DNA from: Sedimentisphaerales bacterium
GTDB lineage: Bacteria; Planctomycetota; Phycisphaerae; Sedimentisphaerales; Anaerohalosphaeraceae
Direction: 5' to 3'
Length of the DNA stretch: 32,328 bases
NCBI GenBank assembly: GCA_016926155.1
Contig: JAFGPC010000134.1
Coordinates: 1-32,328 of the forward strand
Part shown: positions 7,397 to 25,708 of the stretch, one piece after another
Layout: each line of letters begins with the position of its first letter
Numbering within the stretch: the stretch's first letter is position 1
Position numbers and translations under genes: made by a program
The notes under the pieces: model-generated
What the model was told of the DNA's origin: nothing
Seen by the model: only the letters and a program-made list of their open reading frames with translations
The model's database searches: none

Positions 7397-8782
7397 ATGC
7401 GATTATCACGACGGGCTTTTTTGAAAACGGTGGGTATTGGTGCCGCCGCTATGATGGCGCCGGGATGCAGTCAGGAGGAAAAAGTATCCGTTAACACTAG
7501 GGACCGCAGGCCGAATGTGATTTTGATTTACACCGATGACCAGGGCTCCATCGACTTGAACTGTTACGGGGCAAAGGACCTGTATACACCCAACCTGGAT
7601 CGGCTTGCTGAACAGGGCTTGCGATTTACCCAGTTTTATGTTGGAGCACCAGTGTGTTCCCCATCCCGGGCTGCCTTGATGACCGGTCGTTATCCCCAGC
7701 GGGCCCAACTGGCGGGAAATACCTCTTCTATGAAGGGGCATGCAGGGATGCCCACGGAGCAGATAACCATTGCCGAAGTCTTGAAACGAGCGGATTATAC
7801 TACTGGACATGTGGGTAAATGGCATTTGGGTTACACACCGGAAACCATGCCGAATGGGCAGGGTTACGGTTCGAGCTTCGGACACATGGGCGGGTGCATC
7901 GATAATTATTCACATTTTTTTTACTGGAATGGGCCCAATCGCCATGACCTGTGGCGGAATGGCAAGGAAGTGTGGCATGACGGAGAATACTTCGGCGATC
8001 TTATGGTCCAGGAGTGCAATCGATTCATCCATGAGAACAGGAAAGAGCCGTTCTTTCTCTACTGGGCAATCAACATGCCTCATTATCCATTGCAGGGACT
8101 GGACAAATTCCGGGATAGATACAAAGACATGCCCGAACCCCGCAAGTTTTATGCTGCGTTTGTCTCGACGGTTGATGATATGATTGGCCGGGTCCTACAG
8201 ACTGTGAATGAGCTGGGAATACGGGAAGACACGATCATCATCTACTTGAGTGATCACGGACATTCCGTAGAGGAACGGACGTATTTCGGTGGGGGCGACA
8301 GCGGGTCTTATCGAGGTCACAAATTCACCCTTTGGGAAGGGGGCATTCGTGTACCCTGTATCGTATCCTGGCCGGGTAAGATCGCACAGGGAGAGGTACG
8401 TCCGCAGGTTGCCATCAACATGGATTGGATGCCGACTATTGCAAAATGGTGTGGAACAACGATTGAACATCGAATTGATGGACTGGATTTATCAGAAGTG
8501 ATTGAATCCGCAAACACACCAAGTCCACATAAACAATTGCATTGGGAACGACCCGGAGGAAAACAAATCCATTGGGTAGCACGCGAAGGCGATTGGAAAC
8601 TGGTGGTCAATGGTCCCGCAACCAAGGACCGGCATCTGGATTTGCCGGCGGAACAGGAATTTTTAAGTAATTTGTCGAAAGATGTAACGGAGACCAAAAA
8701 TCTGGCGGACCAGCATCCGGAGAAGGTTGAACGGTTGAAACAGTTACATGACCAATGGCGAAAGAGCGTATTGGAGCAATGA
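7397..8782 (+). CDS. Tat lipoprotein sulfatase with Asp-His in the second metal motif
   Basis: 461 residues. The reading frame stays open well upstream to 7250 inside the previous gene, but only the ATG at 7397 is preceded by a ribosome site (AAGGA at 7385-7389, 7 nt away) and begins a proper Tat signal, MRLSRRAFLK, with lipobox MAPGC (Cys24). Asp47-Asp48 in YTDDQG, formylglycine Cys87 in APVCSPSRAALMTG, Lys141/His143 in VGKWHLG, His229 in MPHYPL. The second metal motif reads LSDHGHS (Asp286-His287) instead of the common SDNGG; the following YRGHKFTLWEGGIRVP segment supplies the substrate-site lysine. D-H variants occur naturally in several S1 subfamilies, so activity is expected. It sits 16 bp after the preceding gene. 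Confidence 0.92.
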   Translation: MRLSRRAFLKTVGIGAAAMMAPGCSQEEKVSVNTRDRRPNVILIYTDDQGSIDLNCYGAKDLYTPNLDRLAEQGLRFTQFYVGAPVCSPSRAALMTGRYPQRAQLAGNTSSMKGHAGMPTEQITIAEVLKRADYTTGHVGKWHLGYTPETMPNGQGYGSSFGHMGGCIDNYSHFFYWNGPNRHDLWRNGKEVWHDGEYFGDLMVQECNRFIHENRKEPFFLYWAINMPHYPLQGLDKFRDRYKDMPEPRKFYAAFVSTVDDMIGRVLQTVNELGIREDTIIIYLSDHGHSVEERTYFGGGDSGSYRGHKFTLWEGGIRVPCIVSWPGKIAQGEVRPQVAINMDWMPTIAKWCGTTIEHRIDGLDLSEVIESANTPSPHKQLHWERPGGKQIHWVAREGDWKLVVNGPATKDRHLDLPAEQEFLSNLSKDVTETKNLADQHPEKVERLKQLHDQWRKSVLEQ

Positions 8783-8783
8783 A

Positions 8784-10190
8784 ATGAATCGACGTGATTT
8801 TTTAAAGTCAGTCAGTCTGGTCGGTGTAACGGCAGCCATTGCAGGTTGTGCGGAAGGGGAGAAAAGGATTAGAGGACGGGAACGACGTCCAAATATTCTG
8901 ATGATTCTTGTGGATGATCTGGGATATGGCGATCTTTCGTGCTATGGCGCCCAGGATATGCGAACTCCTCATCTGGATGCCTTAATGGCTTCTGGGATGC
9001 GGTTTGACAGCTTCTATGCGAATTGCCCTGTATGCAGCCCAAGCCGGGCGGCTTTGCTGACGGGCCGTTATCCGGACATGGTAGGCGTGCCCGGCGTGAT
9101 CCGAACACATCAGTCGGACAGTTGGGGATATCTGAAAGAAGATGTGATTCTGCTGCCTCAGCTTTTAAAAAAAGCCGGTTATCATACGGCTGTCGTGGGC
9201 AAGTGGCATCTGGGCTTAGAATCACCGAATGTGCCGAACGAACGAGGATTCGACCACTTCCATGGCTTTTTGGGCGACATGATGGACGACTATTGGAACC
9301 ATCGACGCCACGATATCAATTATATGTATTTAAACAAAAAAAAGATCGAGCCGGAAGGCCATGCAACAGATCTGTTTACGCAATGGTCGGTTGACTATAT
9401 CACTTCCCGTAAGGATTCCAAAAAACCATTCTTCCTGTACCTGGCCTACAATGCTCCGCACACACCGATTCATCCCCCCGCCGAATGGGTTGAAACGGTC
9501 AAACAACGGCAAGCCGGTATCACTGACAAACGGGCCAAACTCGTCGCGTTGATCGAACATCTGGACGATGGGATCGGCAAAGTAATACAGTTGTTAAAGG
9601 ACACGGGGCAATGGGGAAATACCCTCGTGATCTTTACCAGCGACAATGGCGGCCAAACAGGTGTCGGGGCGAACAACGGCCCTCTGCGCGGCGGCAAGCA
9701 GGATATGTGGGAAGGAGGAATCCGCGAGCCGTTCTGTGCGGTCTGGCCGGGACACATACCCACCGGTATACGAAAGGTCGACACAGTCGCCTGTACGATG
9801 GATCTGTATCCGACGATGTGCGAGGCGGCGGGAGTTCCGATTGTCCATGAAATTGACGGACGCAGTTTTCTGCCGACACTCCTTGGCCAAACGCAATCCT
9901 TGCCGGACCGCTATCTAGTCTGGATGCGACGGGAAGGAAATCCACGCTATGGAGGACGGATATATTATGCGATACGGTATGACAACTGGAAACTGCTGCA
10001 GAACTCGCCTTTTGAACCGATGCAGCTTTTTGATCTCAAAAACGATCCAAAGGAGGAAAATCCATTGTCAAACAGTCACCCCATGTTCAAGCGGCTATTT
10101 ATGGAGTTGAGTCGGCATATCAATCAAGCCGGAGGGATTCCATGGGCCAAAGAACCGGCCGACGTGGACAAAGTATATCAGGGGATATAA
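8784..10190 (+). CDS. Tat lipoprotein sulfatase, arylsulfatase type
   Basis: 468 residues starting at 8784, one base after the previous stop; GGAG at 8773-8776 inside the end of the upstream gene is 7 nt away, so the two are translationally coupled. An upstream in-frame ATG at 8748 has no Tat signal directly after it and is rejected. MNRRDFLK Tat motif, lipobox IAGC with Cys22. Asp44-Asp45 in LVDDLGYGD, formylglycine Cys84 in CPVCSPSRAALLTG, Lys140/His142 in VVGKWHLG, His226 in NAPHTP, Asp287-Asn288 in TSDNGGQTG and a lysine in LRGGKQDMWEGGIREP. All catalytic residues of the S1 fold are in place. Closest general type is a classical arylsulfatase; no specific substrate can be read. Confidence 0.93.
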   Translation: MNRRDFLKSVSLVGVTAAIAGCAEGEKRIRGRERRPNILMILVDDLGYGDLSCYGAQDMRTPHLDALMASGMRFDSFYANCPVCSPSRAALLTGRYPDMVGVPGVIRTHQSDSWGYLKEDVILLPQLLKKAGYHTAVVGKWHLGLESPNVPNERGFDHFHGFLGDMMDDYWNHRRHDINYMYLNKKKIEPEGHATDLFTQWSVDYITSRKDSKKPFFLYLAYNAPHTPIHPPAEWVETVKQRQAGITDKRAKLVALIEHLDDGIGKVIQLLKDTGQWGNTLVIFTSDNGGQTGVGANNGPLRGGKQDMWEGGIREPFCAVWPGHIPTGIRKVDTVACTMDLYPTMCEAAGVPIVHEIDGRSFLPTLLGQTQSLPDRYLVWMRREGNPRYGGRIYYAIRYDNWKLLQNSPFEPMQLFDLKNDPKEENPLSNSHPMFKRLFMELSRHINQAGGIPWAKEPADVDKVYQGI

Positions 10191-11629
10191 TGCCGTATCG
10201 TGTTTGCGATCGTCGAATATTTTTACAGCAGATTGGTCTGGCTGCAGGAGCATTGTCGCTTCTTGGTTGTTTCTCAACGCAAGCCGATATACAGAGAAAA
10301 AGAAAAAAGCCCAATATCCTGTTTATTATGGTCGATGATCTGGGGCCGGAGTGGATCAGTTGCTATGGTGGCCAAGATATTCAAACACCCAATATCGATG
10401 CCCTGGCCGAAGGAGGGATGCGATTTACTAATGCCTACTCCATGCCGAAGTGTACGCCCACAAGAGTGAGTCTTCTTACAGGGCAATATCCCTGGCGGAC
10501 CGGATGGATCAACCATTGGGATGTACCGCGATGGGGAGCAGGATGCCATTTTGACTGGCGATACTATACCACATTTGCCCATATCCTGCGATGCGCAGGA
10601 TACGCCACGGCAGCAGCGGGAAAGTGGCAGATTAATGATTTTCGCATCCAACCGGATGCGATGCAGCGACACGGTTTTGATGACCGGTGTATGTGGACCG
10701 GGGGAGAAACAGGAAATCCTCCAAGTGAAAATCGCTACTGGGATCCCTATATTCATACGCAACAGGGAAGCCGAACCTATACAGGGCGATTTGGAACGGA
10801 TGTCTTTGTTGAGTTTTTAATCGATTTTATGCAAAGGCATCGAGATAAGCCGATGCTGCTCTATTTCCCAATGTGCCTAACCCATGGACCTCTCACGTCC
10901 ACTCCGCTTGATCCTCAAGCCCAGGGGAAAATGAGTCGGCACAAGGCAATGGTCCGGTATATGGATCATGCCGTGGGACGATTAGTGGATGCCTTGGAAC
11001 AATTGGGGATTCGAGAGAATACGATTGTTTTCTTTACAACGGACAATGGCACCGCAGGCGGAATAACCGGACGATTGAACGGACGAGAAGTCAAAGGCGG
11101 GAAAGGGACTTTGTGGGAACGTGGTTGCCACGCTCCGTTCATCGTAAATGCTCCAGGTCTTGTTCCGATAGGTATCGTGACCGATGCTCTGACAGACTTC
11201 ACGGATATCCTGCCGACCTTTGCAGAATTGGCGGGAACGCCCGTACCCAAAGACACGGTCATTGACGGCAAATCGGTAGCGTCTTTGCTTCTGGGCAAGA
11301 CACAGGACTCACCACGGCAATGGATTTTGTCCATGGGCGGTGGTGAGGCCAGACAGGTAAATGGACGTGTTGTGCCCGAAAAGGACTATGCAGACCTTGT
11401 TATCCGGGATAAGCAATATAAGTTATGGGTGGAAGACGGTAAATCAACCCGACTGTATAACTTGCTTGATGATCCCGGCGAAGCGACAAATCTGATCGAT
11501 AGCAAGGATATAAACATCCTGTCTGCACGAGAAAAACTGGAACAAATAATTGAATCGCTACCGAAAAAAGATGCTGTTCCCATGTACGATCCGACACCGG
11601 CTCAATCATGGGATAGAAAATTGAACTGA
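10190..11629 (+). CDS. Tat lipoprotein sulfatase with GKWQ in place of GKWH
   Basis: 479 residues. Its ATG shares one base with the previous stop (TAATG), with GGGG five bases upstream, so reinitiation is likely. The Tat motif CDRRIFLQQIG is slightly unusual; lipobox LSLLGC has Cys27. Asp49-Asp50 in MVDDLGPEW, formylglycine Cys88 in PKCTPTRVSLLTG, then PWRTGW. The catalytic Lys-x-His block reads AAGKWQIND: Lys145 is kept but the histidine is glutamine (Gln147). His232 in CLTHGPL, Asp285-Asn286 in TTDNGTAGG and Lys101-type residue in KGGKGTLWERG complete the site. The Gln substitution next to the sulfate-binding lysine may belong to a subfamily feature rather than decay, since the rest is intact. 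Substrate unknown. Confidence 0.91.
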   Translation: MPYRVCDRRIFLQQIGLAAGALSLLGCFSTQADIQRKRKKPNILFIMVDDLGPEWISCYGGQDIQTPNIDALAEGGMRFTNAYSMPKCTPTRVSLLTGQYPWRTGWINHWDVPRWGAGCHFDWRYYTTFAHILRCAGYATAAAGKWQINDFRIQPDAMQRHGFDDRCMWTGGETGNPPSENRYWDPYIHTQQGSRTYTGRFGTDVFVEFLIDFMQRHRDKPMLLYFPMCLTHGPLTSTPLDPQAQGKMSRHKAMVRYMDHAVGRLVDALEQLGIRENTIVFFTTDNGTAGGITGRLNGREVKGGKGTLWERGCHAPFIVNAPGLVPIGIVTDALTDFTDILPTFAELAGTPVPKDTVIDGKSVASLLLGKTQDSPRQWILSMGGGEARQVNGRVVPEKDYADLVIRDKQYKLWVEDGKSTRLYNLLDDPGEATNLIDSKDINILSAREKLEQIIESLPKKDAVPMYDPTPAQSWDRKLN

Positions 11630-11647
11630 TCAAAGAGAGGTAAAAGA

Positions 11648-13345
11648 ATGAAACGATGGAACAGGCGGGAATTCTTAAAGGGTTTAGGCTTGGCGACAGC
11701 GAGTCTGTCGCTAAGCGGTTGCTTGGGGTCGCTTCAAGGATCTGGTACGACTCGACGACCAAATATTGTCCTGATTATGTCCGATGATATGGGATTTTCA
11801 GATATCGGCTGTTACGGAGGGGAGATCAATACTCCGACTCTCGATACACTGGCAGCCGGCGGTTTGCGATTTACCCAGTTCTATAACACAGCACGATGCT
11901 GCCCCACCCGTGCCGCGTTGATGACCGGCTTGTATCAACATCAAGCGGGTGTCGGCCATATGATGGAAGACCGTGGTGTTCCGAGTTATCAGGGAGATCT
12001 GAACCGACAGTGTGTGACGATTGCCGAGGTTATGAAGCTGGCGGGCTATCGTACCTATATGGCTGGTAAATGGCACCTTACACCGCTTCGGGGGGAGAAC
12101 CTATCCAAACATAACTGGCCGTGTCAGCGGGGGTATGACCGCTTTTTCGGTACGATTCATGGGGCGGGAAGCTTTTATGACCCGAACACCTTAACCCTGG
12201 ATAATAAGCAGATTGTTCCGTGGGATGATTTTTATTATACCGAAGCGATCTCGGACTACGCTTCACGATTTATCCGGGAACATAAGGAGCCTGATCCGTT
12301 TTTCATGTATGTAGCCTATACCGCCGCACACTGGCCGATGCATGCCCGCAAAGAAGATATTGCCAAATACAAAGGGCGGTACAGCAAAGGCTGGGATGCA
12401 TTACGGGCCGAGCGATATGAACGACTGAAAAAAATGGAATTGATCGATCCGAAGTGGGAATTAACGCCACGGGATCAGCAGATACCGGCATGGGAAAAGG
12501 AGCCATTTAAGGAATGGAATCAACGCCGCATGGAGGTATATGCGGCGATGGTGGATAACATGGACCGTGGCATCAAACGGATTGTGGAGACGCTCCGTCA
12601 GAAGGGTGAACTGGAGAATACACTGATCTTCTTCCTGCAGGACAACGGAGGCTGCGCGGAAGAGTACGGCAGCAATGGACCGATTAAGCCGGATCCTTCC
12701 AAACCTGTTGAGTTAAAGCCGATGGCCCCGGATGAATTGCAGACCGGTATGCAGCCGACGGTAACACGCGACGGCCGACCGGTCCGTACGGGCAAAGGAG
12801 TCATGCCAGGACCGGCAGACACGTATATTGCTTATGGTAAAGCCTGGGCCAATGCAAGTAACACACCATTCCGATTATACAAACACTGGGTACATGAAGG
12901 TGGTATCAGCACTCCATTGATTGTACATTGGCCGGCACGTATCAAAGATACGGGGCAACTACGATCTCAGCCGGGACATCTGATCGATATCATGGCCACC
13001 TGTGTGGATGTTGCCGCAGCCGAGTATCCCAAAGAGTATAAGGGCAACATCATTCAACCCATGGAAGGAAGAAGTCTGGTGCCGGCATTTGAGAATCGTC
13101 CGATCGAACGACCTGAAGGATTGTTCTGGGAACATGAGGGCAATAGAGCTGTCCGTAAAGGTGACTGGAAACTGGTATCCCGATATCCAGGTCGGTGGGA
13201 GCTGTACAATCTCAAAGAAGACCGGACAGAGATGCATAACCTAGTGGAGGAACATCCCAAGATTGTGAAAGAACTCAAAAACATGTATAATGCCTGGGCG
13301 AAACGATGCAATGTGGTCCCTTGGGGCGAGTTGACCAAGAAATAA
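11648..13345 (+). CDS. Tat lipoprotein arylsulfatase, AtsA-like (S1_4-like)
   Basis: 565 residues. Tat motif WNRREFLKGLG, lipobox LSLSGC with Cys25. The metal site MSDDMGFSDIGCYGGEI (Asp46-Asp47) and the formylglycine site ARCCPTRAALMTGLYQHQAG are characteristic of the Pseudomonas AtsA-like class. In that site Cys84 is the modified residue (C-x-P-x-R) and Cys85 occupies the x position. Lys141/His143 in AGKWHL, His228 in TAAHWPMH, Asp332-Asn333 in LQDNGGCAEEYG, and the long insertion before YKHWVHEGGISTPL (with the catalytic lysine) also match that class, as does the length of about 550. Members hydrolyse small aryl and sugar sulfates. GAGAGG lies about 8 nt before the ATG. Confidence 0.93.
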   Translation: MKRWNRREFLKGLGLATASLSLSGCLGSLQGSGTTRRPNIVLIMSDDMGFSDIGCYGGEINTPTLDTLAAGGLRFTQFYNTARCCPTRAALMTGLYQHQAGVGHMMEDRGVPSYQGDLNRQCVTIAEVMKLAGYRTYMAGKWHLTPLRGENLSKHNWPCQRGYDRFFGTIHGAGSFYDPNTLTLDNKQIVPWDDFYYTEAISDYASRFIREHKEPDPFFMYVAYTAAHWPMHARKEDIAKYKGRYSKGWDALRAERYERLKKMELIDPKWELTPRDQQIPAWEKEPFKEWNQRRMEVYAAMVDNMDRGIKRIVETLRQKGELENTLIFFLQDNGGCAEEYGSNGPIKPDPSKPVELKPMAPDELQTGMQPTVTRDGRPVRTGKGVMPGPADTYIAYGKAWANASNTPFRLYKHWVHEGGISTPLIVHWPARIKDTGQLRSQPGHLIDIMATCVDVAAAEYPKEYKGNIIQPMEGRSLVPAFENRPIERPEGLFWEHEGNRAVRKGDWKLVSRYPGRWELYNLKEDRTEMHNLVEEHPKIVKELKNMYNAWAKRCNVVPWGELTKK

Positions 13346-13396
13346 GTGATATCCGTATTGCTTATTGAGTTGGAATCTCTTATGTGAGGAAGAATG

Positions 13397-14809
13397 ATGA
13401 ATCGACGCAAATTTATCAAGGCGATGGGATTGACAGCAGCGGTATGTCTGGTTAGACCGCCAATCAATGCCGTCGCGGCATCAAAACGAAAACCGAATTT
13501 TGTAATCATCTATGCAGACGATCTGGGGTATGGAGACCTGACCTGCTTTGGACACCCCACTCTCAAAACACCAAACCTGGATCGGATGGCTGCCGAGGGC
13601 GCCAAACTGACCCAGTTTTATTCGGCGGCGAGTGTTTGCACTCCAAGTCGGGCCGCGTTGATGACCGGGAGGCTACCGATTCGCAGCGGCATGTGCAGTG
13701 ACAAACGGGCTGTTCTGTTTCCCAATTCCGGGGGCGGTATTCCAAAAACAGAAATGACTATCGCCGAAATGCTTACGTCGCAGGGATATAGCAGTGGCTG
13801 TTTCGGAAAATGGCATCTGGGTCACCTGCCTCAATATCTTCCGACAAACAATGGATTCGATACCTACTTCGGCATCCCCTACAGCAACGATATGGACCGA
13901 GTCAAAGATGCGCCAAGAAACGCCAACACGAAACCGGAAGTTGAGTATTTCAATGTGCCTCTGATGCGGGATGAAGAAATCATCGAGCGTCCTGCCGACC
14001 AGCATACGATTACCCGGAGATACACCCAGGAAGCAGTGAAGTTCATTAGCAAAAACAAAGACAAACCCTTCTTTATCTACCTGGCTCACAATATGCCGCA
14101 TATCCCCTTGTTTTCCAACAAGGAATTTGAGGGTAGCAGTCTGCGAGGGCTGTATGGGGATGTCGTCGAAGAAGTCGATTGGAGCGTTGGGCAGATACTG
14201 GATACATTACGTAAACAGGGACTGGCTGAAAATACACTGGTGCTTTTCAGCTCAGATAACGGTCCCTGGCTGGTGTTCAAGCAACATGGCGGAAGCGCCG
14301 GTCCGCTTCGCGACGGCAAAGGAAGTACCTGGGAAGGCGGAATGCGGGAACCGACGATCGCCTGGTGGCCGGGAACGATTCAAGCCGGGTCGCTAATGAC
14401 GTACATGACCAGTACACTGGATGTGTTTCCAACGCTGGCTGAATTGGCCGGAGCTGAGATACCGAATGACAGGGTATATGACGGATACAGTATGGTTTCT
14501 CTTCTCACCGGGAAAGGCCCGGGCAGGAGGAATACAATGGTGTATTACCGCGGAACACAACTGCGAGCGTTGCGTAAGGGGCCGTGGAAAATCCATCTGT
14601 ATACAAAGACCGAGTATGTGGGACAGAAGATTCAAAAACATGATCCGCCTCTCTTATTCAATGTGGAAATCGATCCAGGCGAGCAATATGAAGTCGGTGC
14701 TCAATATCCAAAGGTCATCGCGGATCTGCTGGAAGAAGTAAAGAAACACCAGGCAACCGTAAAACCGGTACCCAGCCAACTTGAAATCCCACTATCTGGA
14801 GATTCATAG
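13397..14809 (+). CDS. Tat-exported sulfatase, arylsulfatase-A/GALNS-like
   Basis: 470 residues from the second of two adjacent ATGs (13394 and 13397); the second is better spaced (6 nt) from GAGGA at 13386-13390. The Tat motif MNRRKFIKAMG is followed by a hydrophobic core and cleavage near AVAA-SK at about residue 29, with no lipobox, so a soluble product is predicted. Asp41-Asp42 in ADDLGYGD, formylglycine Cys81 in SVCTPSRAALMTGRLPIRSGM, Lys138/His140 in FGKWHLGHLPQYLP, His235 in NMPHIPL, Asp287-Asn288 in SSDNGPW and Lys308 in RDGKGSTWEGGMREP. The LPIRSGM and HLPQYLPT blocks resemble lysosomal arylsulfatase A and N-acetylgalactosamine-6-sulfatase. A 51-bp gap precedes it, among the largest in the array, without a convincing internal promoter. 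Confidence 0.93.
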   Translation: MNRRKFIKAMGLTAAVCLVRPPINAVAASKRKPNFVIIYADDLGYGDLTCFGHPTLKTPNLDRMAAEGAKLTQFYSAASVCTPSRAALMTGRLPIRSGMCSDKRAVLFPNSGGGIPKTEMTIAEMLTSQGYSSGCFGKWHLGHLPQYLPTNNGFDTYFGIPYSNDMDRVKDAPRNANTKPEVEYFNVPLMRDEEIIERPADQHTITRRYTQEAVKFISKNKDKPFFIYLAHNMPHIPLFSNKEFEGSSLRGLYGDVVEEVDWSVGQILDTLRKQGLAENTLVLFSSDNGPWLVFKQHGGSAGPLRDGKGSTWEGGMREPTIAWWPGTIQAGSLMTYMTSTLDVFPTLAELAGAEIPNDRVYDGYSMVSLLTGKGPGRRNTMVYYRGTQLRALRKGPWKIHLYTKTEYVGQKIQKHDPPLLFNVEIDPGEQYEVGAQYPKVIADLLEEVKKHQATVKPVPSQLEIPLSGDS

Positions 14810-14840
14810 AAACGACATTTCTTTTCAGGAGATCGAATTA

Positions 14841-16223
14841 ATGAGGTCCAAACCAAATCGACGCGATTTTCTAAAGAGTATCGGGTTGACCGGAGCAGCA
14901 CTGTCCCTGGGAGTCAGTATATCGGCACAGGAAGAAGTCCCTTCGACAAAAAGACCGAATGTAATTTTATATGTGGTGGACGATCAGGGCAGCACGGATG
15001 CGGGTTGTTACGGTAATCCAGTAATTCGAACACCGGGACTGGATATGCTTGCCGAGAACGGAACTCGCTTTACCCATGCATTCTGCACAAGTGCATCCTG
15101 CAGTGCCAGTCGTTCGGTTATTCTTTCCGGTTTATACAACCATTACAATGGCCAGTATGGACACCAGCACGCCTATCACCATTTCAGCAGCTTCGACTAT
15201 GTACGATCCTTACCGAACCTGCTTTCCGAAGCAGGTTACCGTACTGCTCGATGGGGCAAATATCATGTAGCCCCTGAAGAAATCTACCAGTTCCAACAAA
15301 CGCTTCCGGGAGGTTCGCCAGAAGCGGGGGCGAGTCGATGCAAATCCTTTCTTGCCGCACAGGATGACAGGCCGTTCTTTTTGTATTTCTGTACCACCGA
15401 ACCGCATCGTCCCTTCCGCCGCGATGGCGATACATTCAAGCCAAACGAAGTGATCGTACCGCCGTATCTGCCGGACTCCCCGGAATGCCGTGAAGAACTG
15501 GCCAAATACTATGATTCCGTCGAACGGGCCGATAAAGGGTTACTGCAGCTATTACAGATTCTCAAGCAAACCGGGCACTGGAAAGACACAGTGGTGATCT
15601 ATCTGTCCGATAACGGCATTGCATTCCCAGGGGCCAAGACCACTCTCTATGAGCCGGGTATGCGCCTCCCCTGTGTTGTGCGAAATCCGTTTGCCGGAAA
15701 AAAGGGGATCGTAACCGATGCCATGGTTAATTACGCCGACATCGCACCGACGATATTGGATTTGTGCGATGCTACGCCAAAGGAGTATTCGTTTCACGGA
15801 AGGTCATTTACTTCAGTGCTTGATCAGGAACATCCGGATGGGTGGGATGAAATTTACGCCTCTCACACGTTCCATGAGATCACCATGTATTATCCCATGC
15901 GGGTGGTGCGGGATCGCCGATACAAACTCATCTGGAATATCGCCTATGGACTGGAATATCCATTTGCATCAGACCTGTATGCCTCGGCGACCTGGCAGGG
16001 AGTCCTCAAACGGAAGGAAAAATTCTATGCCAAGCGCCGTGTCGAGGCTTATCTGCATCGCCCGAAATTCGAACTGTATGACCTGCAGAATGATCCGGAT
16101 GAAGTGAACAATCTTGCTGAAGATCCGAAGTACGAGACCATACTGGAGGAATTGAAGACCAAACTCCGGAACTTTCAAAAGAGAACGAACGATCCCTGGA
16201 TACTGAAGTGGGAATATGAATGA
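14841..16223 (+). CDS. Tat-exported sulfatase, heparan N-sulfatase-like (S1_8-like)
   Basis: 460 residues from the ATG at 14841, preceded by AGGAG (14827-14831) 9 nt upstream; the frame is open from 14781 but no ribosome site or signal supports an earlier start. NRRDFLKSIG is the Tat motif and cleavage is expected after SISAQ near residue 30, without lipobox. Asp47-Asp48 in VVDDQGSTDAGCYG, formylglycine Cys87 in ASCSASRSVILSGLYNH (Ala in place of Pro), the following GQYGHQHAYHHF block, Lys140/His142 in WGKYHV, His189 in TEPHRPF and Asp257-Asn258 in LSDNGIAFPGAKTTLYEPG. These are features of sulfamidase-like enzymes (SGSH, family S1_8), which act on N-sulfated glucosamine or on O-sulfates in bacterial relatives. 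Substrate here is unproven. Confidence 0.92.
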   Translation: MRSKPNRRDFLKSIGLTGAALSLGVSISAQEEVPSTKRPNVILYVVDDQGSTDAGCYGNPVIRTPGLDMLAENGTRFTHAFCTSASCSASRSVILSGLYNHYNGQYGHQHAYHHFSSFDYVRSLPNLLSEAGYRTARWGKYHVAPEEIYQFQQTLPGGSPEAGASRCKSFLAAQDDRPFFLYFCTTEPHRPFRRDGDTFKPNEVIVPPYLPDSPECREELAKYYDSVERADKGLLQLLQILKQTGHWKDTVVIYLSDNGIAFPGAKTTLYEPGMRLPCVVRNPFAGKKGIVTDAMVNYADIAPTILDLCDATPKEYSFHGRSFTSVLDQEHPDGWDEIYASHTFHEITMYYPMRVVRDRRYKLIWNIAYGLEYPFASDLYASATWQGVLKRKEKFYAKRRVEAYLHRPKFELYDLQNDPDEVNNLAEDPKYETILEELKTKLRNFQKRTNDPWILKWEYE

Positions 16224-16270
16224 AACAGGCCAATTTCGTTTTAGGGGACGGCCACTAAAGGAGCAGAACG

Positions 16271-18325
16271 ATGACGACTCAATACTGGAACAGGCGTGAT
16301 TTTCTAAAGGCAGCGGGGGTAACCGCCACGGCAATGACTCTTCCCGGCTGTGGACCGAGCTTACAGACAAGTCCTCAGCAAAGGCCCAATATCATTTATA
16401 TCATGAGTGACGATCACGCCTCTCATGCGATGAGTTGCTATGGAAGCCGGATCAATACGACTCCGAATCTCGATCGGATCGCCAATGAAGGGATGCGATT
16501 TGACAATTGTTTCTGTACCAATTCCATCTGCGCGCCGGTACGTGCAGTCGTATTGACCGGTAAATACAGCCACATTAACGGTGTCCTCGATAACCGCCAA
16601 CGATTTGACGGAAGTCAACAGACCTTCCCGAAAATCCTGCAGGCCAACGGCTATCAAACCGCCATGATCGGCAAGTGGCATCTGAAAACCGATCCTACCG
16701 GCTTTGATTACTGGAACGTCCTTCCAGGTCAGGGAGATTACTATAATCCCGATTTGATCGAGATGGGACAAAGGAAACGATATGAAGGGTATGTAACCGA
16801 TATCCTTACAGATCAGGCATTACAATGGCTCAAAGGCCGCGATCCCGACAAACCGTTTTGTCTGATGTATCACCATAAAGCCCCGCATCGGCGATGGGAG
16901 CCGGGCCCGAATCATCTGACGATGTACGACGATGTGACGATTCCAGAGCCGGACAACCTTTTCGACGATTATGCAACCCGCAGTGATGCAGCCCGGGAAC
17001 AGGAAATGATGGTAGCAAAACATCTGACGCCCAATGATCTCAAGCTGACTGGTGTCCCGGGGCGAATGAACGACCAGCAGAAACAAGCATGGAACACCGT
17101 CTATGAACCGAAGAACCAGGCCTTCGAACAGGCCAATCTGGAAGGGGATGAACTGGTCCGATGGAAATATCAACGGTACATCAAGGATTATCTCCGCTGT
17201 ATCGCCTCCGTGGATGATAACGTGGGACGAGTGCTGGACTGGCTCGAGGAGGAAGGGCTTGCCTCCAATACGGTGGTTATTTATACCTCAGATCAGGGAT
17301 TCTATCTGGGCGATCATGGCTGGTTTGACAAACGGTTCATGTACGAAGAATCCTACCGTATGCCGCTGTTGATCCGCTGGCCGGGAGTTATCAAGTCCGG
17401 ATTGGTAAACGACGAATTGGTGATGAATGTGGATTTCGCCCCGACGATCCTCGATGTGTGCGGAGCACAGGTTCCCGAGGATATGCAGGGCGAAAGCTTT
17501 GGCCTTATGCTCAAGGGCCGGAAACTGACAAACTGGCGAAAAGCCTGCTACTATCATTATTTCGAATATCCCGCTGTGCACATGGTCAAACGGCATTATG
17601 GAATACGGACCAAAAAGTATAAGCTGATGCACTTCTATAACGATATCGATACGTGGGAAATGTACGATCTCCAAAAGGATCCGCGGGAGATGAATAACAT
17701 CGCCGATGATCCCGCCTATGCTCAAATACGAATGGAAATGACAACGGAGTTATATCGACTCAAGTCTTACTACGGAGATACACGGGAACTGGAAGAGGAA
17801 TTGATGGACGGCAAGGTGCGGGTATTGCAGCATAAAGATTTCACAGGAGTATATAACGCACAAATCAAGGACTCCGTATTTGGATATGATATGACGGCAC
17901 AGGGAATGGGATTTGCCCTGAAACGTGCAGACAAACCGTTCCAGAAAAAGGCGGTATTCCAATGCAAACTCAAATCTCTCGTTAATGAAGGCACGAGAAA
18001 CGGCTTTCTTTGTTTCGGCCAAAGTGACAATCGGAATGACATGGTAAAAACAGGCGTCTTTATCGGCGCGGGTGAGTATGTTTTCCTGTTCGGAAGAATC
18101 GGTGAGGAAAGTAAAACCCTGCGAACACCAACTCCATTTGACAAATTCAAGACCTTCGATGTATCAGTGGAGGTGGATTTGCAGGCCGACAAGATTTCTA
18201 TGACCGTAGATGGCACAACGATCACGGCCCCTCTGCAGCGGGATTGGAAACAGATTGGATATTACGGCTATATGGCCAATGGTGCAAGCACGGCGTTCAG
18301 TAAAATCGAGGTGTCGGGTGAATAA
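16271..18325 (+). CDS. Tat lipoprotein sulfatase, GlcNAc-6-sulfatase-like (S1_11-like), with lectin-like C-terminal domain
   Basis: 684 residues. Tat motif [11 protein letters not shown] and lipobox TLPGC (Cys27). Metal site [14 protein letters not shown] (Asp47-Asp48), formylglycine Cys87 in [20 protein letters not shown], Lys135/His137 in IGKWHL, His206 in [10 protein letters not shown], and Asp341-Gln342 in [23 protein letters not shown]. These blocks are characteristic of the N-acetylglucosamine-6-sulfatase-like group. The catalytic part ends near residue 505. Residues about 515-684 form an extra beta-rich domain with alternating hydrophobic strands (ending SKIEVSGE) that looks like a LamG/concanavalin-A-type jelly roll and may bind glycan. 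It is the last complete sulfatase of the array. Only 40 bp without a terminator separate it from the convergent gene. Confidence 0.92.
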
Positions 18326-18334
18326 GCTGATAAA

Positions 18335-18397
18335 GGGAGTGAATCCATGAATCGTTGTAGGCCTGCTATCGATGCCAGGTTGGAGCGAATTTGCTGA
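18335..18397 (+). pseudogene. Remnant of an eleventh sulfatase gene: RBS, ATG and first codons only
   Basis: GGGAG at 18335-18339 stands 7 nt before an ATG at 18347, the same arrangement as in the complete sulfatases. The first 15 bases (codons M-N-R-C-R) match the first 15 of the sulfatase at 3662 in 13 positions; the two differences are C-to-T changes that turn the second twin arginine into cysteine. After this the frame meets a stop at 18395-18397, having run into the antisense of the convergent gene, whose stop is at 18366. Homology to a Tat signal therefore ends by about 18365. The simplest reading is a deletion or inversion that removed the rest of a sulfatase gene. Confidence 0.6.
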
Positions 18398-20720
18398 TCG
18401 CTTCATCGAACAACGGCCTGCGTCGAAAATCGGCCGGATCGTAGGTTGGATTGGAAGGATCGGCATTCGCCCAGTGCGAATGATGACGGCCGTAATACGT
18501 GCCGTAAAACTGATAGTTTGTATCCACCCATCGACACAGGACCATCAGCTCATATGGATCGAGCAGCCTGGTATGATCCTCATTGGCGTTCTTCGGATGC
18601 GCTGCATCGGTAAGCACTTGAATCAATACACTTTGGTAACAGCCAAGGCTTTTTGGTTTCAGAAAAGAGCCGTTGTAATTGCCCTGGTCTCCCTGTAGAA
18701 AAGAGGTAAATTCCGGAATGATCGGACCGGCCAGTTGCTTTTTACACAATTCTTCATAAGAAGCGTTGTAATATTCCGTCAGATCGGCAGTCAGCTTCAA
18801 ATCTCCCTCAGGTTTTTCATTTCCATGACAGGAAATGCACTTGGCGTCGAAAAGCGGTTGGATATCGCTGGGGTAATGAATTACCTGTCGGGCAAGGCCG
18901 TCTCCGCCATGATCGACAAGATCACACGGCTGCGGCTGGGGAGTGCTCGGCTCGCGTCGTAAGGCCAGAAGCATATGGGGCTTGGTATGGTTGGCGGTAT
19001 GGTTGTTTCTCCCGTGACACCCGACACAGGAGCGCACTTCGCCGGGACGATAGTTGACATAGGTCCGCTCCCGCTGGATTTCCCGAAAGTTCTCATCCAG
19101 TGCCTGGAAGAAGATATTCCGATTGGCCGGGACTTTGAAGTAGGCTGAGCCGTCTTTTTCCACCGGCACGACACCCCACTGTACCCGGGGCCAGAGGGCC
19201 GCCTTCCAGTTGGAGCTGGTTGTGGCCATGCCCCATCGCCTGCCGGTATCCCAGTATCGCGGGACCGCCTCGTTGATTCGCAGCCATTTGATCTGGCCGA
19301 GTGCTACATTTTCCATTTCCTGATAAACATTATTGAGAATACAGAGAGCTTCATTGTTGGCGGCATACTTCGAATCGTAATCCGTTTGGATTTTCGGGGG
19401 AATCTTTCGAGCGACTAGCGGAGTCGGATGCCAGCAGGATAAAGCCGGATCATTGTAAATAAGCCGATGGTTTCCTTCCGTATCAATCAGATACAGGCTA
19501 TAGGCATCGGGTACGTTTTGATAATGGTCGCTCGGGTTGGATTTGTAGGAAACGAGAAACTCATTTTCGCTGACCGGATAGGGATGTGTGTAGAGATGAC
19601 CGCTTCGACCTTCCTGGTCGTGTACATAGGTGCCGTCTTGCTTTCGGAAATACCAGCCGTATCCATTCCGTCGTTCCATAAAGATATGCGGAGTGATGTT
19701 GGTGACGGCATAGTTATTATCCCATTGGATATACTCAGGCTCGTCCGGATCGGGGCCTCGTCGGAGCAAACCCTGCTGTAAATTGAGAAGCATAATCGCC
19801 CCGAGACAGCCGCCTTGGGGATAGTGGCACGTGCCGACACAGACGATCTGGTCGCTGGTTCCGGGCAAGGCTTGGGGATACATATACACGGTTGTGGTAT
19901 CATCGGCTATGCCGTACAATTCCTGTGGCATGGATCCATCCGGATTCATGGACCAGATCGTTTTACATACTCGTGAACCTTTATCGACATATTCCCAGCG
20001 ATGATACATCACCCTGCCGTCATCCAGAACCACCGGACAGAATTCGCTGACAGGGCTCTGGGTGAGTTGCTGGATGTTGCCGCCGTCGGCATTCATCCGA
20101 TGCAGTACGGATGTGACCAGGTGTGCGGAACCGCCGCAGAGGATCGTATACTCACAGCGGGTCGAGGAAAAAATAATATCGCCGTCCTGCAGGTAACAGG
20201 GATGAACGTCGTCGGTGTGCCAGGGCTTGCCCCAGCGAGCTACCTTCTGGGCTTCGTCGGGAGGAGGGAACGACACTTGCCGCAGACCCGTGCCATCTAC
20301 ACACACCTCCCAGATCCGAAAACCGGCGCTGGGATTTTCGCGGAAATCAAAGAGGACTTTCTTTGCGTCGAAAGACAGGCTGATCTTACCGATAAAGCCC
20401 TTGCCTCCCGGCAGGCGGGCCGCGGTAACCACGGGCCGTGGTTGCTGTGTGCGGAGGTTATAGATATAGATGCCGTTGTCGGCGACAAAACGGTCGGGAC
20501 TGGTGCCGTTGTTGATATCGGTGTAATAATGGTCGGAGGAATAGGGCTTGCGTTTCACAAAAACAATCTCATCAAATCCCAGCCGATCGGAATCAGCGGT
20601 GAGCTTCTGATCGATATCCTGTAGATCCGCTATGCATAAGACGCTGGTTGTCAGAAGAACGACGGTAATCAAACTCGTTACAAGAATTCGCGTCATTGGT
20701 CTTAATTTATGTACTGCCAT
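18366..20720 (-). CDS. Secreted HzsA-related protein with beta-propeller and two c-type haem motifs
   Basis: 784 residues. A signal peptide (ILVTSLITVVLLTTSVLCIA, about residues 12-31) directs export. Residues about 45-440 contain repeated segments such as NPDGSMPQELYG, MNADGGNIQQLT and VDGTGLRQVSF, typical of PD40/TolB-like propeller blades. Two canonical haem c motifs follow, CVGCH at 565-569 and CISCH at 628-632; an additional CVGTCH (294-299) has one residue too many for the standard motif. The combination is that of the hydrazine synthase alpha-subunit-like family, which is widespread in planctomycetes that do not make hydrazine; the role is unknown and probably redox-related. The start at 20720 overlaps the upstream gene by 14 nt; Met9 at 20696 is the alternative. 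The C-terminus sits on the breakpoint described for the sulfatase remnant, so the last residues may not be native. Confidence 0.85.
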   Translation of the reverse strand: MAVHKLRPMTRILVTSLITVVLLTTSVLCIADLQDIDQKLTADSDRLGFDEIVFVKRKPYSSDHYYTDINNGTSPDRFVADNGIYIYNLRTQQPRPVVTAARLPGGKGFIGKISLSFDAKKVLFDFRENPSAGFRIWEVCVDGTGLRQVSFPPPDEAQKVARWGKPWHTDDVHPCYLQDGDIIFSSTRCEYTILCGGSAHLVTSVLHRMNADGGNIQQLTQSPVSEFCPVVLDDGRVMYHRWEYVDKGSRVCKTIWSMNPDGSMPQELYGIADDTTTVYMYPQALPGTSDQIVCVGTCHYPQGGCLGAIMLLNLQQGLLRRGPDPDEPEYIQWDNNYAVTNITPHIFMERRNGYGWYFRKQDGTYVHDQEGRSGHLYTHPYPVSENEFLVSYKSNPSDHYQNVPDAYSLYLIDTEGNHRLIYNDPALSCWHPTPLVARKIPPKIQTDYDSKYAANNEALCILNNVYQEMENVALGQIKWLRINEAVPRYWDTGRRWGMATTSSNWKAALWPRVQWGVVPVEKDGSAYFKVPANRNIFFQALDENFREIQRERTYVNYRPGEVRSCVGCHGRNNHTANHTKPHMLLALRREPSTPQPQPCDLVDHGGDGLARQVIHYPSDIQPLFDAKCISCHGNEKPEGDLKLTADLTEYYNASYEELCKKQLAGPIIPEFTSFLQGDQGNYNGSFLKPKSLGCYQSVLIQVLTDAAHPKNANEDHTRLLDPYELMVLCRWVDTNYQFYGTYYGRHHSHWANADPSNPTYDPADFRRRPLFDEAISKFAPTWHR

Positions 20721-21302: not shown

Positions 21303-21351
21303 GGAAAAAGTAAGGACTACAGAATAATACTAGAGTTTTGGAGGTTCTGTG

Positions 21352-24063
21352 ATGGCGCGGTATCGATATTCTCCTGTTATGGTCTTTGTCCTCAGTTGGA
21401 TCTGTCTGTGTGCATGCAGCGTGCAGGCCGAGACGATCTATGTCTCGCCGGAGGGTCGGGATTCCTGGTCGGGTCTTGTCGAGCGAGCCAACGCCCGACG
21501 CTCGGATGGACCGGCGGCAACGCTGACCGGGGCGCGCAACGTCGTACGAAAGCTCAAGAGCGAGGACAAGCTCATCGAGCCGGTCGAGATCGTCGTCGCA
21601 GACGGGCAATATACCATGCTCGAAACGCTGGTCCTGGAACCGCAGGACAGCGGCACAGCGAATATGTCGATCACCTACCGAGCCGCAGACGGCGCCAAGC
21701 CCGTCTTTTCGGGGGGGCAGGTGATATCCCGTTTTGTCCCCGACAAAGACGGTGTGTGGAAAACACGAGTGCCGGACGTTGCCGAAGGGAAGTGGTATTT
21801 TGAGCAGCTCTGGGTGGATGGTGTGCGGGCTGTGCGGGCCAGGACGCCAAACGAGTATTACTTTTACATGCTCAGCATTCATGAACAGATGCTGGAAAAC
21901 GGAGGCAGCGTAGCCAGGCGGGCCCGCCAGACCGTCAAGCTCCGCGCCGGGGATATCGCCCACCTTCTGCCCCTGAGCAAAAAGGAACTGCGCGATGTCA
22001 ACTTCATGGTGTATCACAAATGGGACAACACTCGGCGGTTTATCACGGCTGTCAATGGCAAGAACAACCTGCTGATTACCGACGGGACGGGGATGAAGCC
22101 CTGGAACAAGTGGGTCAACAACACGCGATATCACCTGGAAAACTTCAAGGCCGCCCTGGATACTCCGGGTGAGTGGTTTCTGGATCGTGACGGGACGCTG
22201 TACTATAAACCGCTGCCGGGCCAGGATATGCGAAAGGCGGTTGTCGTAGCCCCAAGACTGGAGAAATTCGTCGTTTTCAAGGGCGATCTGGATAAGAAAC
22301 AGTTCGTTGAGCACATTACAATCCGCGGCCTGTCGTTTCAGCATGCCCAGTACCTCACTCCGCCCGAGGGTTTTGAAGCGGCCCAGGCGGCCTCGCCCAT
22401 TGACGCCGTGGTCATGGCTGACGGAGCCCGAAACATCACGCTGGATCTATGCCGTGTCGAGCATGTGGGCACCTATGGCATCTGGTTCCGGGAGGGCTGT
22501 TGGGACTGCCTGGTGCAGCGGACACTGGTGAATGATCTGGGGGCCGGCGGGATCCGGATCGGCGAAACGGGGATCGCTTCCGAGGAGCATCGGCGAACCA
22601 GTCACATTACGGTTGATAACAATATCTTCCATGGCGGCGGGTATATCTTCCCCTGTGCGGTTGGTGTATGGATCGGCCAGAGCGGCGATAATCAGGTCAC
22701 GCACAATGATGTGGGCGATTTTTATTACTCAGCCGTCTCGATAGGCTGGCGATGGGGCTACTCAGACAGCCTGGCCAAGCGGAACCACGTGGATTACAAC
22801 CACTTGCATCATATCGGTTATGGTGTGCTCAGCGACATGGGAGGGGTATACACGCTCGGCCCCAGCGAAGGCACAACGGTCAACAATAACGTGATCCATG
22901 ACGTCTATGCGTACTCCTACGGCGGCTGGGGGCTGTACACCGACGAGGGCAGCACGGGTATCACGATGGCCAACAACCTCGTATATAACGTTAAGACCGG
23001 AGGATTTCACCAGCATTACGGCAAGGAAAACGTGATCCGCAACAACATCCTGGCCTTTAGCGAACTGTATCAGGTGCAGGCCACCCGCGTTGAAGAACAT
23101 CTGTCGTTTACGTTTGAGAACAATATCGTTTACTACGATCAGGGAGTATTGCTTTCCGGGCCATGGACGCGGGTACGGCTGAAGATGGATAACAATTGTT
23201 ACTGGAATACAGCAGGGAAAGTGGATTTTGTCGGAAAGAAACTGGAGGACTGGCAAAAAGAGACAGGATACGATAAAAACTCGATTGTCGCCGATCCTGG
23301 ATTTGCGGATACAGCCAATCATGATTTCCGACTGCCGCCGGACAGCCCGGCATTGAAGGTCGGTTTCCAGCCGTTCGACTATAGCAAGGCGGGTGTATAT
23401 GGCGATCTTTCATGGATTGAACTGGCCAGGAACTTGCCTGTCAAAGAGCGAGAACTGCCGCCCCCGCCCCCGCCGGTAGATGTTGAGGATGATTATGAAC
23501 TGACCGATGTCGGGTCTCTGCCGGCGGATGCCGAAGTCCACACCGAGAACAAAGGCGATTCGATTGTTATCACAAACGAGCAGGCTGCTTCGGGGGAAAA
23601 ATCGGTCAAGATTACCGACGCGCCGGGCCTGGAGCACTCCTGGAATCCTCACCTGGTCTATCGTCTCCAGCACCGAAGCGGCACAACAACTTCGTCGTTT
23701 GACCTGATGATCGCAGTAGATTCGAGTATCAATTTTGAATGGCGCGATTACGGCAAGAGCCCATATCGAACCGGGCCGTATTTTTCCATTCGCAATCAAA
23801 TCCTGAGCGTGGCCGGCAGGGAAATGATGCGACTGCCTTTAAAAAAATGGATTCATTTCTCGATCACTGCGCCGCTGGGGGAAACAACCGAGGAAGCATG
23901 GTCGATGGAGGTGACTATCCCGGGAAGTTCCTCACGTATGTTCAGGAACATTCCCCATAGCAGTACGGAATTTAACCATTTGGAATGGCTGGGCTTGACC
24001 AGCAACGCCACCGATAAAACCGCCTTCTACTTGGACAACATCTCGATCAAAAACAAGCGATAA
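21352..24063 (+). CDS. Secreted right-handed parallel beta-helix enzyme, GH141-like, with C-terminal jelly-roll domain
   Basis: 903 residues from ATG 21352, 7 nt after GGAGG (21340-21344); a GTG three bases earlier is too close. Signal peptide to about residue 26 ([14 protein letters not shown]). The opening pattern, with [12 protein letters not shown], then [29 protein letters not shown] and [14 protein letters not shown], is that of the beta-helix glycosidases grouped in GH141, known for alpha-L-fucosidase and xylanase activities. Residues about 310-650 hold the helix coils with repeated N-N and I/V-rich rungs ([35 protein letters not shown]). A polyproline linker (six P in a row near 702-707) leads to a domain at about 710-903 resembling a LamG-type carbohydrate-binding jelly roll. 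The family assignment is by pattern only; a polysaccharide lyase or epimerase of beta-helix fold is the alternative. Proximity to ten sulfatases supports a role on sulfated glycan. Confidence 0.8.
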
Positions 24064-24136: not shown

Positions 24137-24168
24137 AAAAAAGGCCGCGAGCCTCCATGCTCACGACC
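24137..24168 (-). terminator. Strong intrinsic terminator on the minus strand
   Basis: On the minus strand GGTCGTGAGC (24168-24159) pairs with GCTCGCGGCC (24152-24143) over 10 bp with two G-U pairs; the loop is ATGGAG, and TTTTTT follows at 24142-24137. There is no leftward protein gene ending here, so it marks the end of a non-coding transcript. Confidence 0.8.
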
Positions 24169-24444
24169 CAAGCAAAAATGCGTATCAGGTCACTCGTCCC
24201 TGTGCGACCTTCAAGCTGTCTTTTCATTACCATATCCGGCGGTCACCGCCGGTGTCCTCCCGTTAACACCATTCCCTTGGCGCACACTATCCCTGTCAAC
24301 TTATCAAAATCGAGTTTGAGGATATCTTCTTACCCTACCGGCTTCCCATGGCGCACATAGACCATCCCTGCCTACGGAAAACGCTCCCTGTAGAATTGTT
24401 TTTTCATTCTTATCCTCGCCCTCCGTGTACTCGTCCCTTTCGAT
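24137..24444 (-). ncRNA. Candidate CsrB/RsmZ-like CsrA-sequestering small RNA
   Basis: A leftward transcript of about 305 nt is predicted from a strong promoter (24451-24479) to a strong intrinsic terminator (24137-24168), and no convincing reading frame fills it. It holds 13 GGA triplets, eight of them GGGA. ACAGGGA occurs exactly three times (24391-24385, 24296-24290, 24203-24197), with a further CAGGGATGG at 24370-24362 and AAAGGGACG near 24440; these match the CsrA consensus ACARGGAUG. Two sites sit in hairpin loops: CGCCA-AGGGAA-UGGUG (24282-24267) and CAC-AGGGACGA-GUG (24206-24190, extended by AGGU/ACCU). A very stable stem, CCGGCGGT-C-ACCGCCGG (24236-24252), and a repeated block TGTGCGCCA (24356-24348 region and 24286-24278) add structure. 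Architecture resembles CsrB; homology to a known RNA family could not be tested. Confidence 0.6.
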
Positions 24445-24450
24445 CAAATC

Positions 24451-24479
24451 ACTATATTCGCGGACCATATGTTGATCAA
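24451..24479 (-). promoter_or_regulatory. Sigma70-type promoter for the candidate small RNA
   Basis: On the minus strand TTGATC (24479-24474), a 17-nt spacer, and TATAGT (24456-24451). Transcription should start near 24444. Confidence 0.7.
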
Positions 24480-24796: not shown

Positions 24797-25708
24797 ATGA
24801 AACCATGTTTATTGACTGCTTTGTTGATGTTCTCGGCATTTGTATCCGCACAACAGAGTCGGGAGAAAACACCCGGATCGGAGGAGCCGTCTTCAGCGCG
24901 ATGGGAAAAAGAAATCCGGGTATTTGAAGAGTGGGACAAGAAGAACTCGTTTCCCAGGGACGCGGTTTTGTTTGTTGGCAGCAGCAGTATTCGACTGTGG
25001 CCAACGTGCGAATCATTTCCCGGGTTTCCCGTGATCAATCGAGGATTCGGCGGGGCTTTCGTTGCCGACGTTACATACTATGCTGACCGCATTGCAATCC
25101 CGTATAAACCGACAGCCATCTGTTTTTTTGCCGGCGGAAATGACATTGCGTCAGGCAGGACACCGCAACAGGTTGTTGAAGACGCCGCCGCTTTTGCCAA
25201 ACACATTTGGTTGAAACTGCCGACAACACCGATTCTCTTTTTGTCCATCAAACCCAGTCCCCAACGCATGGCCCACTGGCCGCAGATTAAAGAGGCCAAC
25301 AAGTTCCTGCAGGACATGTGTTCGCGAGATGACCGGCTTTCTTTTGTTGATGTTGCCACTCCGCTTCTGGACCTCGAGGAAACACCCATCCCCTCGTTGT
25401 ACCAATCGGATCAGTTGCACCTTAGCGAAACCGGGTATCGGATATGGACATTGCTGGTCACGCCGGCTTTGACGCAGTGTATTCGAATCAACGAGTCGAA
25501 TACTTTCGCACCAGGAGATTCTACTCCGCCGGCAGCATCCCCGAATCCAGGTGTAGGTAACTATATCGCTTCCAAAACTAGTAAAATCTTCCATACTTCA
25601 ACATGCAGTTCGGCGAAACGAATTACAGAAGCCAATCTGGTACGATTTGATTCGCGGGAGCAGGCGCTCCGCAGTGGACGAAAACCCTGTAAGCTCTGTA
25701 AGCCCTGA
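24797..25708 (+). CDS. Secreted SGNH/GDSL hydrolase fused to an Ada-like zinc-binding domain
   Basis: 303 residues with a signal peptide (cleavage near VSAQQ, residue 19). The SGNH blocks are visible: FVGSSSIRLW at 59-68 with the nucleophile at Ser63, a glycine at NRGFGG (block II), GGND at 113-116, and DQLHLSETGY with Asp205 and His208. This is the fold of carbohydrate esterases and platelet-activating-factor acetylhydrolase-like proteins, so deacetylation of a glycan is a reasonable guess. After a Pro/Ser linker (238-254), residues 256-303 read YIASKTSKIFHTSTC and end GRKPCKLCKP; Cys270, Cys298 and Cys301 with His266 match the small metal-binding domain of Ada methyltransferase, here exported. 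AGGAGG (24784-24789) is 7 nt before the ATG. Confidence 0.88.
   Translation: MKPCLLTALLMFSAFVSAQQSREKTPGSEEPSSARWEKEIRVFEEWDKKNSFPRDAVLFVGSSSIRLWPTCESFPGFPVINRGFGGAFVADVTYYADRIAIPYKPTAICFFAGGNDIASGRTPQQVVEDAAAFAKHIWLKLPTTPILFLSIKPSPQRMAHWPQIKEANKFLQDMCSRDDRLSFVDVATPLLDLEETPIPSLYQSDQLHLSETGYRIWTLLVTPALTQCIRINESNTFAPGDSTPPAASPNPGVGNYIASKTSKIFHTSTCSSAKRITEANLVRFDSREQALRSGRKPCKLCKP

Follow-up and report, generated by a model that had tools for sequence, protein, structure and literature searches.

The window, by which we mean the whole stretch of DNA that was analysed, comprises 32,328 nt from a member of the planctomycete order Sedimentisphaerales. On its minus strand, positions 24444 to 24137 appear to constitute the gene for a stand-alone small regulatory RNA that is conserved in related planctomycetes and that we infer to be expressed. 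The predicted RNA strand is rich in G (104 G, 54 C) and lies between two protein-coding genes. The features of this locus, ordered from upstream to downstream of the RNA, are the following:

24797 to 25708, plus strand: GDSL/SGNH hydrolase with a C-terminal Ada-type Zn-binding domain (Pfam PF13472, PF02805), the divergent upstream neighbour, used as synteny anchor
24451 to 24479, minus strand: sigma70-type promoter TTGATC-17-TATAGT, found by consensus scan, with counterparts in the related genomes G008, G018 and G009
24137 to 24444, minus strand: predicted small RNA of about 305 nt, bounded by the conserved promoter and terminator, with an orthologous locus in relatives
24412 to 24426, minus strand: 5' element ACGGAGGGCGAGGAU, AGGAGG-like, found near the 5' end in nearly all long-form homologues
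24372 to 24407, minus strand: possible 11-codon leader ORF, MKKQFYRERFP, whose start, stop and Shine-Dalgarno (SD) sequence are aligned in G008
24385 to 24391, minus strand: ACAGGGA copy 1, read in the sequence
24290 to 24296, minus strand: ACAGGGA copy 2, read in the sequence
24266 to 24283, minus strand: hairpin GCGCCA[AGGGAA]UGGUGU with an ANGGAN hexaloop; GGA in the loop with probability 0.99
24197 to 24203, minus strand: ACAGGGA copy 3, read in the sequence
24187 to 24210, minus strand: weaker hairpin AGGUCGC-A-C[AGGGAC]G-A-GUGACCU with an ANGGAN hexaloop and an A.A mismatch; probability 0.33
24142 to 24169, minus strand: 3' hairpin GGGUCGUGAGC[AUGGAG]GCUCGCGGCCU, the intrinsic terminator, with its ANGGAN hexaloop at 24158-24153
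24137 to 24142, minus strand: T-run of the terminator, read from the sequence
21349 to 24063, plus strand: right-handed beta-helix (GH141-like) protein (Pfam PF13229, PF21231), the convergent downstream neighbour

A sequence-only reading of this DNA had proposed the minus-strand promoter TTGATC-17-TATAGT and an intrinsic terminator. The promoter is present at 24479-24451, and the terminator at 24169-24137 consists of an 11-bp hairpin, where 10 bp had been proposed, followed by a T-run. The RNA start at 24444 was placed from the position of the -10 element. Across a scan of 5 kb, lone promoter-like or terminator-like matches turn up as often as chance predicts, and both elements are credible because they are conserved in relatives. 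BLAST and pattern searches recovered the promoter, together with an almost unchanged terminator hairpin, from G008, G018 and G009, where the promoters at the same place read TTGAAC-17-TATAGT, TTGAAT-16-TATAGT and TTGAAT-16-TATGAT, respectively. The named records that bear orthologues are metagenome-assembled genomes labelled Phycisphaerae, Phycisphaerales or Planctomycetota. The earlier reading had been staked beforehand on such conservation, and the promoter, the terminator and the GGA loop of the 3' hairpin are all conserved in relatives. As in the Csr/Rsm class, the predicted gene would be noncoding and equipped with its own promoter and terminator.

Between the window and its nearest orthologues, no site is kept in position except the 3' hairpin, and conservation is low in the central part of the transcript. 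This low central conservation, along with the chance level of single matches, is what might be expected if the locus were ordinary intergenic sequence, in which a promoter match had arisen by chance and the terminator belonged to some other unit. We consider this very unlikely given that promoter, terminator and position are kept across genera, that the stem covaries and that the genome carries a second paralogue.

The absence of convincing coding potential, also noted in the sequence-only reading, holds for longer frames, as the minus strand of this interval contains no ORF of at least 80 aa. It has to be qualified for shorter ones, because an SD-led ORF of 11 codons (24407-24372) has a counterpart in one relative. 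The main rival explanation builds on this ORF. The transcript would be a small mRNA or leader in which AGGAGG is the Shine-Dalgarno sequence for a short basic peptide, the hairpin is a mere terminator or attenuator, and CsrA, if bound, regulates translation of the peptide. Indeed, SD, start and stop align between the window and G008 (column-shuffle p 0.009), AGGA is enriched in the RNA bodies of 13 homologues, and reading by eye finds similar MKKQ starts in G025 and G020 and, after the same SD, MKKQRGISAKIIR and MKKQRGVSGIFIK in the two g12 genomes. However, G013 has no start codon near AGGAGG, G030 has a stop soon after it, and neither the length nor the sequence of the peptide is kept between genera. 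A leader or attenuator is also difficult to reconcile with the window, where no co-directional gene lies downstream and the neighbour is convergent. Moreover, a small mRNA leaves unexplained both the free N positions in an otherwise invariant A.GGA loop and the second ANGGAN hairpins described below. We therefore regard it as improbable that the transcript is nothing but a small mRNA or leader. The short-ORF reading, weakly supported in some genera, is nevertheless compatible with CsrA binding, and the two could coexist.

Where contigs allow, the RNA locus of G008, G018 and G009 lies between the same two neighbours as in the window, and the beta-helix neighbour is the same in all three. In G013 and G019 the RNA occupies another position, downstream of nrdJ, and in the examined loci of genus g13 (G029 and G145) the RNA is followed by a 3D-domain protein. 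The idea that the RNA is a companion of the beta-helix gene was rejected: no such RNA lies next to the beta-helix orthologues in other families or in G013, and because those of other families lack an adjoining RNA it is not an accessory of that gene. The suggestion that the RNA tunes glycan metabolism encoded nearby likewise found no specific support, as the RNAs of relatives reside beside nrdJ, the 3D-domain protein or other genes.

Several observations concern the surrounding genes themselves. The Ada-type Zn domain (SKTSKIFH..C..AKRI...CKTCNP) recurs at the C terminus of hydrolases of this bacterial family with varied N-terminal domains. Several genera carry, in the interval that separates the Ada-Zn gene from the RNA and directly before the RNA promoter, an ORF for a small membrane peptide of ~30 aa (L124, L129, L134, L119; e.g., MIAVMLSSHEVLVIVLIVAVMVFIMSRRK), which by eye is like the start of a TatA-like protein. 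Elsewhere in the window, positions 18366-20720 encode a protein matching the middle domain of hydrazine synthase alpha (PF18582), and this gene adjoins a series of sulfatase genes, with matches spread over 8748-18325.

The 3' hairpin is kept across many genera. Across 12 distinct homologues of this hairpin, 98.5% of cells are paired, and changes on both sides are seen in 6 of 11 pairs, a level reached by 0 of 500 shuffles. In the loop of these homologues, A, G, G and A are invariant and both N positions vary, with A, C, G or U at position 2. Consensus folding of the entire transcript yields the 3' hairpin alone as a convincing structure. A covariance model built on this hairpin (R1) gave further matches in the window's bacterial family; because the model was trained on GGA loops, the hairpin's own loop statistics are partly selected. 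Tests that leave out the 3' hairpin are the stronger evidence. Homology is established independently of the loop by means of the divergent Ada-Zn neighbour that the loci have in common: a search with this neighbour protein from one of the further matches, followed by inspection of upstream regions, located hairpins of G029, G032, G030, G025, G020, G001, G027, G016 and G024 at the same syntenic position. The T-run after the hairpin is missing in several genera in which hairpin and loop are kept, so the conservation goes beyond termination.

When 397 genomes of the class were searched at a threshold of E<=1e-7, matches of the 3' hairpin model were confined to the window's bacterial family and to genus g37, which belongs to another family. 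The g37 loops read AUGGAG, ACGGAG or AGGGAG. Many weaker matches are ordinary terminators without GGA loops, ordinary gene terminators with GGA loops of this type also exist (L165), and two pattern matches (L036 and L043) resemble coding sequence and were set aside as chance. The same terminator stem occurs elsewhere with other loops (GTTAC, ATATC, TTTGCA), so the family is not defined by stem identity alone. Its apparent hallmark is a terminator-like 3' hairpin with an ANGGAN loop, usually after an AGGAGG-like 5' element, with a second ANGGAN hairpin in several genera.

The sequence-only reading had relied in part on the number of GGA triplets. Its count of 13 is correct, but its expectation of about five is too low: shuffles give 9.5 (mononucleotide) to 11 (dinucleotide), with p 0.12-0.26. 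There is no excess in the window RNA or over 13 homologues, and counting was dropped as evidence because strand composition accounts for the total. Longer motifs behave differently. ANGGA occurs eight times versus about three in shuffles (p about 0.004), AGGGA six times versus 0.9, and ACAGGGA, whose three exact copies do have the proposed spacing of 95 and 93 nt, three times versus 0.05. Among 32,669 windows of 308 nt from the same genome (a background of 20 stretches plus the window, 333 kb), 0.13% have at least eight ANGGA and none has at least six AGGGA. Other GGA-dense windows of this genome are mostly coding.

Exposure of these sites was predicted as well. Unpaired GGA in the window RNA amounts to 7.1 versus 3.0 expected, and 0 of 100 shuffles scored as high; in G008 and G018, GGA triplets outside the terminator loop are no more exposed than in shuffles. 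The proposal that GGGA lies in at least two hairpin loops agrees with ensemble probabilities of GGA in the loop of 0.99 and 1.00, with 0.33 for a third site. Multiple exposed GGA sites are typical of the Csr/Rsm class, and the window RNA has two strict ANGGAN hairpins plus the weaker one.

CsrA/RsmE proteins recognize the ANGGAN hexaloop, and solved structures show RsmE bound to it (PMC7652899). We counted such hexaloops on stems of at least 4 bp, excluding the 3' hairpin, which is the only part used for searching. Seventeen RNAs have 8 versus 0.47 in shuffles (0 of 500 as high), and ANGGAN ranks first of 90 permuted motifs. Such hexaloops include GCGCCA[AGGGAA]UGGUGU of the window RNA and UUUCA[AYGGAC]UGAAA of genus g37. 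With one RNA per genus the count is 4 versus 0.27, and with the window left out it is 3 versus 0.23 (p 0.001). This rigid count gauges RsmE-type sites rather than all CsrA sites, since CsrB of Escherichia coli scores zero. The strict ANGGAN hairpins number just one in several homologues (G009, G018, G019, G013, G025, G020, G017). Seven genomes of genus g13 retain a second hairpin, UUA[ANGGAG]UAA, with N as A, C or G and with one A-U to G-U change in the stem.

The same results bear on whether this could be a conserved small RNA that acts otherwise, through base pairing or another RNA-binding protein, with a GGA loop that is coincidental or serves another partner. Its fast-evolving body between conserved ends resembles that of many trans-acting RNAs, and in several genera a TGTGCGC-type motif recurs after the 5' element and before the hairpin. 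Yet the A-N-GGA-N constraint, repeated in further hairpins and first among the permuted motifs, is the CsrA/RsmE element, and the strand, rich in G and poor in UCC, does not resemble RNAs that base-pair to ribosome-binding sites. We find this alternative improbable, slightly more so than the small mRNA.

The window's genome appears to encode a second RNA of the same kind. The next match of the model in this genome is at G000 C104:44132-44173 (L152), and the feature around it is as follows:

L152 402-673, equivalent to G000:C104 about 43,901-44,173: second RNA with five ANGGAN hexaloop hairpins

The hairpins before the 3' one are AAAC[AUGGAU]GUUU, AGA[AUGGAU]UCU, GACG[AGGGAG]CGUC and CGCAU[AGGGAA]AUGCG, and the RNA ends in GGGUCGCGGGC[AUGGAU]GUUCGCGGCCC. 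It is the only cluster of at least three ANGGAN hexaloops (stems of at least 4 bp, within 300 nt) in 1.53 Mb of examined sequence, a count that includes both strands, and its predicted fold surpasses that of all 200 shuffles. G008 has an apparent counterpart with three ANGGAN hexaloops (L166). Because the genome carries this second RNA, the two are likely to form a pair analogous to CsrB/CsrC or RsmY/RsmZ. The second RNA adjoins, in convergent orientation, an ORF that by eye resembles anthranilate/para-aminobenzoate synthase component I.

A CsrA decoy requires CsrA, and lack of csrA had been named as evidence against the idea. The window's genome has one csrA, whose intact product of 64 aa contains L4 and R44, as read directly from the translation. 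These are key RNA-contact residues (PMC7652899). Within the order, searches recovered CsrA from 136 of 161 genomes; it was not found in five RNA-carrying genomes. One of these, G009, was discounted as a refutation because its contig stops 293 nt past the conserved csrA neighbour, before the expected csrA start. G018 and G019 lack the csrA neighbour as well, and the remaining two genomes are 57% and 73% complete.

RNA antagonists of CsrA have been described as a gammaproteobacterial feature, and FliW has been proposed as the CsrA antagonist outside Gammaproteobacteria, Planctomycetes included (PMC4682653). A search that does recover FliW in Bacillus and Thermotoga detected none in nine genomes from the family or order, including that of the window. 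This leaves a place open for an RNA antagonist. FliW is a protein, and the planctomycete RNA would fill the same CsrA-restraining role.

The known RNAs offer instructive comparisons. Like RsmX, RsmY and RsmZ, which sequester CsrA/RsmE in Pseudomonas, the planctomycete RNA is predicted to stand alone with its own promoter and intrinsic terminator. It likewise carries multiple ANGGAN hexaloop hairpins, and its genome encodes a further RNA of the type as well as a small CsrA-family protein. In contrast to them, it comes from a different phylum and has no sequence or covariance-model similarity, and the planctomycete RNAs often have only one or two strict hairpins, with the terminator hairpin as the most conserved site. 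CsrB and CsrC of E. coli are similar in their length of about 300 nt, many GGA, a second paralogue in the genome and the sponge action that the window RNA may have. CsrB differs in having 22 GGA in 369 nt and zero strict ANGGAN hexaloops by the measure used here. Rfam covariance searches, which had been recommended as a check, matched no unrelated RNA family, and the Csr/Rsm models (CsrB, CsrC, RsmX, RsmY, RsmZ) matched neither the window nor homologous loci with E values as high as 5 allowed. A search of the available literature library found no paper on CsrA-binding RNAs in planctomycetes.

Computation demonstrates conserved gene boundaries, stem covariation, a constrained A.GGA. loop, enrichment of ANGGAN and the presence of CsrA. 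The window RNA is probably a CsrA decoy, a type hitherto known almost exclusively from gammaproteobacteria, because its hairpin loops carry the exact CsrA recognition signal, and together with its relatives it most likely represents a new, sequence-unrelated Rsm/CsrB-like family that binds and antagonizes CsrA. The RNA most likely exposes several ANGGAN hexaloops (two strong, one weaker) and further AGGGA sites. CsrA dimers would bridge the ANGGAN loops, the RNA would draw CsrA away from the leaders of mRNAs, more CsrA sites would come from the second RNA, and the family would thereby participate physiologically in CsrA control. We are fairly confident in the core of this model, a stand-alone RNA that binds CsrA through ANGGAN hairpins and competes with mRNA leaders, from a fast-evolving Phycisphaerae family with a second RNA in the genome. 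The initial idea of an independent or very divergent CsrB/RsmZ-like RNA accordingly stands as regards ANGGAN hairpins, covarying stems, a second RNA, an intact CsrA and no FliW found, and sequestration is its predicted part.

A broader proposition has somewhat better than even prospects: that FliW-less Planctomycetes restrain CsrA by a hitherto undescribed, independently evolved RNA family with at least two RNAs per genome, the terminator hairpin being the most conserved CsrA site. BarA-UvrY control of CsrB/CsrC is characteristic of Gammaproteobacteria (PMC4682653). If the proposition is true, CsrA sponge RNAs arose outside that class without a BarA-UvrY circuit. In this planctomycete lineage CsrA is present, FliW could not be detected, and a conserved RNA family displays the loop that CsrA recognizes. 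Bacteria widely possess CsrA, and its control outside Gammaproteobacteria becomes directly testable. The covariance-supported 3' hairpin also provides a handle for finding more such RNAs.

Additional RNA-like regions were encountered along the way. In G016, G024 and G027 (L137, L138, L139), the hairpin is followed by TTGACTT...TATATT, which resembles a promoter, and by a conserved stretch that bears no annotation (AGCCGAGCGGTTCGGC...) and had no Rfam match. Genus g37 (L155-L157, L159, L041, L042) has a strongly conserved RNA-like region of ~270 nt with UUUCA[AYGGAC]UGAAA, a 3' ANGGAG hairpin and an internal terminator-like element around AGGGAGGCA/UGUCUCCCU. In two g13 genomes (G012 and G031; L172, L192), an RNA-like locus carries GCGGAC[ANGGAG]GUUCGC, with N as G or C, and a terminator hairpin with the loop ACGGAU. 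This locus is possibly a third type of CsrA-binding RNA.
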